35,793 nucleotides of DNA from Pedobacter sp. (lineage in GTDB: Bacteria > Bacteroidota > Bacteroidia > Sphingobacteriales > Sphingobacteriaceae). Below the pieces are notes generated by a model. The model was not told the origin of the DNA and ran no database searches. It worked only from the letters and a program-made list of their open reading frames with translations. Below, in pieces: positions 25,075 to 28,253 of this stretch. The first letter of the stretch is position 1. Each line of letters starts with the position of its first letter. The stretch is from positions 1-35,793 of the forward strand of contig SEDB01000052.1 of NCBI GenBank assembly GCA_004210715.1. Reading direction: 5' to 3'. The position numbers were made by a program, and so were the translations under genes.

Positions 25075-25635
25075 TTAAAATTTAATGGTTTCTGTTGGTG
25101 TAATGCAAAAGTCTAAACGAATGTCGTGTTCATTCACATCATCAATTCTTGCTATTGCAGGCCACAAAGATAAGCCTATTTTTTGAGCATTTATATTTTC
25201 AAGGAAACGGTCGTAAAAGCCCTTTCCATAACCAACTCGATAACCTACTTTATCAAAAGCTAAAAGCGGAACCAAAACCATATCAATTTCTCCATCGTGT
25301 ATGCTTCCCTTTTGTGGTTCCAGAATGTTGTAAAGATTCTTTTGTAAATCGTTTACCCCCAAATATTCATGATTCGTCATTAATGCGGTTTCAAAATCGG
25401 CTTTAGGTACAATGATTTTAATTTGAGGATGATTTTCAGCCAGCCATTCAATTAGTAGAAATGTATTTGGTTCTTTTTTTTCTGTTATCGGCAAGAAAAT
25501 ATGAAGCGTTTTTACTGTGCTAAAATCCAAAGCCGTGAATTGATTTAACAAGCCATTATTTAACGATTCATATTCCATATCGCTAATCGCTAATCTATCT
25601 TTTAAAGCTTGCTTTCTAATTTCCGATTTTAACAT
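25075..25635 (-). CDS. 5-formyltetrahydrofolate cyclo-ligase
   Basis: 186 aa; 'MVLVPLLAFDKVGYRVGYGKGFYDRFL' signature. Confidence 0.93.
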   Translation of the reverse strand: MLKSEIRKQALKDRLAISDMEYESLNNGLLNQFTALDFSTVKTLHIFLPITEKKEPNTFLLIEWLAENHPQIKIIVPKADFETALMTNHEYLGVNDLQKNLYNILEPQKGSIHDGEIDMVLVPLLAFDKVGYRVGYGKGFYDRFLENINAQKIGLSLWPAIARIDDVNEHDIRLDFCITPTETIKF

Positions 25636-25959: not shown

Positions 25960-26520
25960 CTATTTCACACGCTCTACGTATTCTCCTGTACGTGTATCCA
26001 CTTTAATTTTATCGCCTTGGTTTACAAACATAGGTACTTTAACCTCAACACCATTTTCAAGTGTTGCCGCTTTCAATGCATTAGTAGAGGTATCGCCTTT
26101 AACAGCCGGCTCCGAATAGGTAATTTCAAACTCAGCAAAGTTTGGTAGCTGTCCCATAATTGCTTCATCGCTTTCCATAGAAACGATAACGCTCATGCCT
26201 TCTTTTAAAAATTTGATAGCAGATCCAAATAGTGTTTTTTCAACATTATATTGTTCGTAAGTGTTGTTGTCCATTACCACTAAGTAATCGCCATCTTCAT
26301 AAAGATATTGATAATCACTTGTTTCCACACGGCAAATTTCAACAGCTTCGTCCGTACCCATACGAGCCTCAACAATTCTGCCCGATTTAATGTTACGGAA
26401 TTTGCCAGTGTAAAATGCGCCGCCTTTGCCTGGTGTACGGTGGTTCCACTCGTCAACAGTAACCAGTTCGCCATTTAGGCGAAGGATGTTACCGTTTTTA
26501 ATTTCTGATGCTTTTGCCAT
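25960..26520 (-). CDS. efp: Elongation factor P
   Basis: 186 aa; 'EWNHRTPGKGGAFYTGKFRNIKSG' loop with Lys, C-terminus 'DKIKVDTRTGEYVERVK'. Confidence 0.95.
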   Translation of the reverse strand: MAKASEIKNGNILRLNGELVTVDEWNHRTPGKGGAFYTGKFRNIKSGRIVEARMGTDEAVEICRVETSDYQYLYEDGDYLVVMDNNTYEQYNVEKTLFGSAIKFLKEGMSVIVSMESDEAIMGQLPNFAEFEITYSEPAVKGDTSTNALKAATLENGVEVKVPMFVNQGDKIKVDTRTGEYVERVK

Positions 26521-26542: not shown

Positions 26543-27043
26543 TTATATTTCGGTTTTTTGTGACGGCAAAGGTAAAATTATTTTAGTTGCATATTTTTGC
26601 GCACTGGTAGAGGTATCGCCTTTAACAGCAGGCTCTGTGTAGGTAATTTCAAGCTCTACGCTGTTTGGCAATTGCGCAACAATTGGTTCATCGCTCTCGA
26701 AGGCGATGGTTACATTCATGCCTTCTTTAAGAAATTTAATTGAGCTGCCGAAAAGCAATTTTGGGATATTGTATTGTTCGAAGGTGTTATTGTCCATTAC
26801 CACCAAATAATCGCCATCCTCGTATAAATATTGATAATTATTGGTTTCGACGCGGCAAATGGTCACTTCTTCATCGGTACGGAAGCGATATTCAACAATT
26901 TTTCCGGTTTTAACGTTCCGCATACGGGCTTGATAAAACGCCCTTAAATTACCAGGTGTACGATGAATATATTCTTCTACGCTTACCAACTCTCCGTTAA
27001 AACGAAGTACATTTCCGCTTTTTACTTCTGATGCTTTTGCCAT
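26543..27043 (-). pseudogene. Second elongation factor P paralogue, C-terminus lost
   Basis: Highly similar to the downstream efp until 'TEPAVKGDTSTSAQKYAT', then non-homologous 'KIILPLPSQKTEI' encoded by the downstream promoter region. Confidence 0.75.
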
Positions 27044-27172
27044 TTTAATAATGAAATCTTGTTTTGCTAATTTTTGAATATCAAAGTTAAAAAAATGAAT
27101 TTTGATTTGGAAAGCAAAACCCGCATTAATCGGTTATAGCAGTCCCGCTTTTACTTCAATCTTTTTTGTAAA

Positions 27173-27209
27173 ATAAACCTCGTAGGTTTTTAAAGCCTAC
27201 GAGGTTTAT
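27173..27209. repeat. 14-bp-arm palindrome ATAAACCTCGTAGG-N9-CCTACGAGGTTTAT
   Basis: Perfect inverted repeat in noncoding DNA; similar to a common Bacteroidota intergenic hairpin (memory-based). Confidence 0.75.
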
Positions 27210-27357
27210 CAAAAAAGTATTTCCGTGGCAATCGGGTTTAAGTCACTTAAGCCTCTGCAATAAACCAAAGCCTGCTCCCGTAAAGTGTGCTAAACAAAAA
27301 CATCGAATTTGCATTTATTGCTTTTTGGCTTTAGCCAACTGAGGAAAAACCACCGTA

Positions 27358-27524
27358 TAAAAGAAATGCCTTTGGGAACCACTCCAAAGGCATAATCAAC
27401 CTAAACCTCAAACTAAACTATGAAAAAATTTTTCGCTTTTACAGCTGTATATTTTGTTTCCGTTAAACGGAGAATATTAATGTTTTTCCAGAAGAGATAA
27501 ATTAAATATTGTTTCTCTTTTTGG
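27358..27524 (-). ncRNA. Candidate ~165-nt small RNA bounded by a strong promoter and an intrinsic terminator
   Basis: TTTG-N18-TACCTTTG promoter at 27559-27530, no ORF of note, terminator ATGCCTTTGG-AGTGGTTC-CCAAAGGCATTTCTTTT. Confidence 0.55.
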
Positions 27525-27529
27525 TGGTG

Positions 27530-27559
27530 CAAAGGTAAGAACTATTTTTCAGTTACAAA
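27530..27559 (-). promoter_or_regulatory. Orphan Bacteroidota-type promoter TTTG-N18-TACCTTTG
   Basis: Exact match to the -33/-7 pattern on the minus strand, with no CDS directly downstream. Confidence 0.7.
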
Positions 27560-27638: not shown

Positions 27639-28253
27639 TTATTTAAAATCAGCTATTTGAATCATTTCTTTGCAGAAATCATATTCCTGGATTTGGTTAG
27701 AACCAATTACAGTTAATCTATCTTTAGTAAATTTTTCGATGAGTTCCTTGTACCAATTAATTCCCTGAACGTCTAAATTACTGGTGGGTTCATCTAAAAA
27801 TAATATTGGTGAGTCAGAACAGCATGCCAAAGCAAGTTTGGTTCTTTGTTTCATTCCCGATGAAAAGTACTTGATTTCCTTGTTTGCCGATTTTTCCAAA
27901 CCCAATATAGAAACTAATGAATTTGCATCAACCCCATCGGCAAAGTTTTTGAACTTAAAATGGAAATTAATAATCTCTTTTAAGGTAAATGTTTCTACCA
28001 GTTCCAAATATGGCGCAGCAAGGCTGATGTGTTTATAAATATCTTCAACAGGAATGTCTTGTGTGTCAGAAAAAGAAATTTGCCCTTCCGATGGTGTTAG
28101 GCTACCGGTTAGAACACTCAATAAGGTCGATTTTCCTGAGCCATTTGGTCCTAAAATAGCGTAACTGTTGCCGGAAATGAACTCGGTGCTTAGATTTCTA
28201 AAGATCCATTCCTTGTTAAATCTTCTGCCAATGTTGTTTAAAGCTATCTTCAT
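27639..28253 (-). CDS. ABC transporter ATP-binding protein
   Basis: Walker A 'LGPNGSGKSTLL', signature 'YFSSGMKQR', Walker B 'ILFLDEPTSNLD'. Confidence 0.93.
   Translation of the reverse strand: MKIALNNIGRRFNKEWIFRNLSTEFISGNSYAILGPNGSGKSTLLSVLTGSLTPSEGQISFSDTQDIPVEDIYKHISLAAPYLELVETFTLKEIINFHFKFKNFADGVDANSLVSILGLEKSANKEIKYFSSGMKQRTKLALACCSDSPILFLDEPTSNLDVQGINWYKELIEKFTKDRLTVIGSNQIQEYDFCKEMIQIADFK

Follow-up and report, generated by a model that had tools for sequence, protein, structure and literature searches.

A conserved FopS-like small RNA of Pedobacter, very probably derived from the efp 3′ UTR, with a predicted affinity for susC start codons

In Bacteroides thetaiotaomicron, the FopS RNAs base-pair at the start codon and thereby repress the translation of SusC (PMC11697453). 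The same paper describes GibS of Bacteroides, which shares the R1 seed with FopS, carries a second seed, R2, and has other targets. The locus considered here lies in a 35,793-nucleotide stretch of Pedobacter sp. DNA (the window), which very probably encodes a conserved, FopS-like sRNA that derives from the 3′ UTR of efp and adheres to susC start codons. We found no literature description of such an RNA in Pedobacter.

Comparison with described RNAs

The likeness to FopS lies in an unpaired seed in which UUUUUCAU faces the start codon, an AGGUU stretch and an intrinsic terminator, all present in both RNAs. In addition, susC-type mRNAs are the predicted targets of the Pedobacter sRNA, its predicted promoter is of the housekeeping type, and the window's genome encodes an RRM-1 protein (108 aa, like RbpB, which binds FopS RNAs; its match to the NCBIfam RNA-binding-regulator model is below cut-off). 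The differences are as follows. FopS has 12–15 paralogues per genome, whereas the window's genome (78% complete) has one strong copy, the next match having E = 0.34. The Pedobacter sRNA has a fixed place beside efp and a probable 3′-UTR origin. Its stand-alone form is longer by a 5′ domain of ~95 nt, which contains hairpins of its own, and the single-stranded seed of that form is internal (about nt 97–131), followed by the terminator, rather than at the 5′ end.

Among the Bacteroidota sRNA families of Rfam, FopS (RF04319; gathering cut-off 56 bits) is the best match for this RNA, at 22.9 bits and E 0.4. When RF04319 was run against 60 whole genomes of relatives, the sRNA locus was among the best matches in many Pedobacter, at about 24 to 33 bits (e.g., G027, G018, G035, G006, G019, G025, and G002), and no match in any of the 60 genomes reached 56 bits. 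By all that is computable, the sRNA is FopS-like; by the FopS threshold or copy number, it is a non-member. True orthology with FopS, as opposed to a convergent resemblance, would refine the explanation proposed below rather than exclude it, and we regard it as possible but on the doubtful side. The order UUUUUCAU-seed-AGGUU-terminator is shared, and genome-wide the model matches exactly at the locus, in the window and in relatives (up to 33 bits). Against this, every score falls short of the cut-off, and since each of the two RNAs is antisense to mRNA starts of the same type, convergence could yield the same letters. Moreover, the available part of PMC11697453 mentions no linkage of FopS to efp, and a class-level search found no clear intermediate in other families.

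GibS acts at translation start regions, as is predicted for the Pedobacter sRNA, and it is absent from the window's weak Rfam matches. 6S and 6S-Flavo are likewise stand-alone RNAs of 100–200 nt in Bacteroidota, but the fold of the Pedobacter sRNA lacks their long closed double-stranded rod. No 6S match was found at the gathering score, nor among the weak matches up to E = 10, and none of the other Rfam families reaches its cut-off. The proposal of the earlier note that the unit is a candidate new small RNA is the right reading, although the note's material could reveal neither the pairing segment nor the likeness to FopS, nor the place of the element in the efp 3′ UTR of relatives. Proteobacteria have 3′-UTR-derived sRNAs, such as CpxQ, that use the terminator of the host mRNA. 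As in these, the RNA can be found in the 3′ UTR of another gene, along with the terminator. What differs is that the relatives of the window's genome show both 3′-UTR and stand-alone forms, including a remnant of a host-ORF deletion.

The explanation that we propose, and consider probable, is a trans-acting sRNA gene with its own promoter, a seed for susC starts, parallel repression of SusC proteins and an origin in the efp 3′ UTR. Transcription would begin at the housekeeping-type promoter and stop at the intrinsic terminator, giving an RNA of ~168 nt, as judged from the promoter and terminator signals. The seed would pair with the susC start region and block ribosome entry, and many SusC/TonB-dependent glycan transporters would be repressed in parallel, as with FopS in B. 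thetaiotaomicron. The RRM-1 RNA-binding protein perhaps helps or opposes the sRNA. The efp 3′-UTR form would be ancestral, with stand-alone genes freed from efp repeatedly. Both the expression of the sRNA and the repression are predicted from sequence.

Signals, conservation and neighbours of the predicted gene

Table 1. Positions of the predicted sRNA, its parts and its neighbours in the window.
Feature	Position	Strand	Evidence
ABC transporter ATPase, 5′-side syntenic neighbour	27639..28253	minus	Pfam; synteny
−33 promoter element TTTG	27556..27559	minus	sequence; position kept in relatives
−7 promoter element TACCTTTG, Bacteroidota housekeeping type	27530..27537	minus	sequence; relatives
Predicted sRNA, ~168 nt, with predicted start site	27357..27524	minus	promoter and terminator positions; Pedobacter conservation; no conserved ORF
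5′-domain hairpin UCCGU-UUA-ACGGA	27459..27471	minus	covariation across species
Seed UUUUUUCAUAGUUUAGUUUGAGGUUUAGGUUGAUU	27394..27428	minus	near-invariant; pairs with susC start regions (computed)
Terminator stem-loop, perfect 10 bp, ATGCCTTTGG/CCAAAGGCAT, loop AGUGGUUC	27366..27393	minus	sequence, comparison
Terminator U-tract TTTCTTTT, directly 3′ of stem-loop	27358..27365	minus	sequence
efp2, C-terminally truncated	26543..27043	minus	Pfam EF-P domains
efp1, intact	25960..26520	minus	Pfam
5-formyltetrahydrofolate cyclo-ligase (FTCL), 3′-side syntenic neighbour	25075..25635	minus	Pfam; synteny

The earlier note had described a leftward TTTG-N18-TACCTTTG promoter and, downstream, a perfect 10-bp hairpin with a T-run behind it, and both are present as described. 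The predicted promoter, with its 18-nt spacing, is conserved in relatives, and the −7 element recurs in 25/25 aligned stand-alone relatives. The terminator stem shows compensatory changes among relatives (C-G to G-C, U-A to C-G), and its loop is retained in 111 of 117 loci. Taken singly, the sequence says little: the fold of the unit is unremarkable (z −1.4), and a loose terminator scan performs at chance level (2 found vs. 2.1 expected). Thus, the case for the unit rests on conservation and comparison. Across Pedobacter, the entire unit can be aligned, from promoter through terminator.

Several self-complementary stretches had been noticed in the interior. One of them, CCGTTTAACGG, is a conserved hairpin of the 5′ domain that covaries among species as UUCCG/CGGAA, UUCUG/CAGAA, and UUCUAC/GUAGAA (cores CCG/CGG, CUG/CAG, and CUAC/GUAG); its mean score is 8.0 vs. 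5.75 for shuffles, and 0/100 shuffles scored as high. The others, AATATTTAA/TTAATATT and ACAGCTGT, show no conservation as such. On the full-length alignment, RNAalifold proposes a long-range AAGAGAA/UUCUUUU pairing, the pairs of which are nearly unvarying and are not relied on here.

The most conserved part of the unit is a core made up of the last 75 nt (27430–27356), i.e., the 35-nt segment UUUUUUCAUAGUUUAGUUUGAGGUUUAGGUUGAUU plus the terminator. The core is nearly invariant in almost all Pedobacter genomes searched and recurs in related genera, while the 5′ part of the sRNA drifts. Conservation of the ~35 nt upstream of the hairpin equals that of the hairpin itself. When 100 relatives were searched by BLAST, the unit turned up in 60 of the 61 Pedobacter genomes (its own included), and in the family search it was present in every genome of the same genus among the matches listed. 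With an exact pattern and one genome per GTDB species, 117 loci were collected; these loci were picked by the seed itself, which inflates the apparent invariance of the seed. All 117 lie beside the ABC, efp or FTCL gene, so the label "orphan" that the unit had been given is misleading.

A second, weaker copy of the core is found in a few relatives. Two such copies, at 39–40 bits, lie downstream of other genes in Pedobacter (L085:1305–1377 and L084:1306–1375); the former follows a gene that, by eye, resembles a small heat-shock protein gene. In a prophage (L083:1185–1330), a copy of the core begins at the last base of a tRNA-Met gene and sits between portal and head-morphogenesis genes. Searches of phage, plasmid and viral-contig collections gave no match to the core. 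Outside the family, the class-level search gave weak matches only, none beside efp. Two loci in another family of the class (L334 and L335, ~1501–1575) have a peroxiredoxin-like gene (AhpC-type, by eye), the 3′ UTR of which carries TTTTTTATAGTTTAGTTTTAATT and a terminator; this is possibly a similar but separate 3′-UTR RNA.

The gap in which the unit sits, between the end of the ABC gene at 27639 and the start of efp2 at 27043, is 595 nt long, close to the ~600 bp given earlier. The unit is not alone in it: a Flavo-1-like element, matching RF01705 at 41.6 bits (cut-off 42), occupies 27137–27243 on the minus strand, upstream of efp2, and has a hairpin, CCTCGTAGG..., inserted in a loop. efp2 belongs to the type of efp gene that, in relatives, bears the element in its 3′ UTR. 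In the window, its C-terminal domain is short of about 33 residues at the end, and the gene runs into the efp1 promoter; the efp2 genes of relatives are intact (186 aa). The truncation may be genuine, through a deletion, or stem from an assembly fault.

Pairing of the seed with susC start regions

When the seed UUUUUUCAUAGUUUAGUUUGAGGUUUAGGUUGAUU is reverse-complemented, it reads like a Bacteroidota gene start (AATCAACCTAAACC...AAACT ATG AAAAAA). It is complementary to the start region of susC-type mRNAs, from about −38 to +10, with its CAU (27422–27420) opposite the target AUG. The exact target context AACCTAAACCT-N-ATGA was found nowhere else in the window's genome; it follows that targets pair imperfectly, and individual seed–susC duplexes contain bulges.

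Pairing energies were computed ignoring the accessibility of both RNAs and with susC start codons assigned simply. In a complete relative, G048, from which an evenly spaced 1.2-Mb sample was taken, the mean pairing energy of the seed with the −45..+15 segment was −17.2 kcal/mol for 17 susC starts vs. −13.3 kcal/mol for 767 other genes (Mann–Whitney p = 1.6e-4), a gap matched by 0/150 dinucleotide-preserving shuffled segments. The effect has its only peak in windows with centres from −20 to 0, and in most of the susC duplexes of this genome CAU faces AUG. Likewise, the 22 susC genes of the window's own genome gave z −4.6 (0/200 shuffles), and the 30 of a 3′-UTR-type species, G035, gave z −5.2 (0/200 shuffles). 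The control at +60 was flat in both of these genomes; that at −120 was flat in G035 and mildly better than shuffles in the window's own genome (z −2.0). When the analysis was slid along the RNA, the susC preference appeared only in windows holding the seed segment. The starts of ordinary genes also pair somewhat better with the seed than with shuffles. Thus, the seed mimics start regions in general, with susC clearly preferred, and its reach may be broad rather than susC-specific.

Gene order and descent from the efp 3′ UTR

In the window's clade, the gene order is ABC-promoter-sRNA-efp2-efp1-FTCL, and the sRNA of the window stands alone, i.e., it is not placed between a stop codon and the terminator of a host mRNA. 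In other Pedobacter, the 75-nt core directly follows the efp stop codon, between efp and FTCL, and in several other genera of the family the core is likewise the efp 3′ UTR. The 117 loci divide into 54 in the efp 3′ UTR and 63 that are stand-alone. On a tree of the ABC protein, obtained by a short search with one 204-aa protein, the distribution of the two forms needs six changes, at least four of which are forced by well-supported branches. The 3′-UTR form, being that of the outgroup genera, is taken as ancestral. Gene order and tree together suggest that stand-alone genes arose several times from the efp 3′ UTR.

One such event has left a trace. In the intergenic segment of P. gandavensis and three relatives, the orthologous efp promoter is followed by "tatataaagagaataaaataaga", which is what remains of the last efp codons, and then by the RNA. 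The presence of the efp promoter and the last-codon remnant ahead of the RNA indicates that the RNA was retained when the efp ORF was deleted. These four genomes have one efp elsewhere; their sisters have two. The event in the window's clade is older, and an efp remnant is not recognisable there; from the gene order, its path is likely to have been a deletion or rearrangement.

These arrangements also bear on a purely cis-acting role, in which the element would serve the efp transcript alone, as a strong conserved terminator or for mRNA stability, and have no function in trans. Its position directly after the efp stop codon in 54 of 117 loci and the strong terminator at its end would fit such a role. 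The role would leave the start-region complementarity unexplained, however, and it is at odds with the equal conservation of the ~35 nt upstream of the hairpin, with stand-alone elements that precede efp or have no efp behind them, and with the retention of the element after deletion of the efp ORF. We judge it improbable. A 5′ leader or attenuator of efp2 was considered since the element lies upstream of efp2 on the same strand in the window, but its terminator is >300 nt before efp2, which has its own upstream TAnnTTTG, and other species have the element downstream of efp or with no efp behind; on the gene order in relatives we reject this reading, leaving it a very slight probability. Slighter still is that of a short protein-coding gene: the window does have short frames (39 aa on the minus strand, with a TTG start, and 26 aa on the plus strand), but the longest in-transcript ORF in 25 relatives is 0–24 aa and unconserved. 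On the antisense strand, the ORFs of 112 loci vary in length between 5 and 87 aa and share no common length; on this ORF comparison we reject coding on either strand.

The trans-acting sRNA remains the preferred explanation. A broader proposal, to which we give an even chance, is that the Sphingobacteriaceae have, at this one locus, a global SusC repressor with a stepwise birth: an efp 3′ UTR with a universal susC-start antisense segment would have become independent several times as the efp ORF in front of it was lost or moved, with pickup by a prophage behind tRNA-Met, and the whole may be an early form of the FopS system. The sRNA is very probably real, new and FopS-like, having started out as the efp 3′ UTR and separated from efp repeatedly. 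In the literature consulted, one gut genus is known to control glycan uptake post-transcriptionally through such RNAs. If the explanation is true, such control would extend to Pedobacter and its relatives, with the RNA encoded at a fixed, easily deleted locus. The family would also offer a rare natural series from a 3′-UTR RNA to a gene of its own, in which a deletion remnant records one of the events, and through which the origin of stand-alone sRNA genes would become directly testable.
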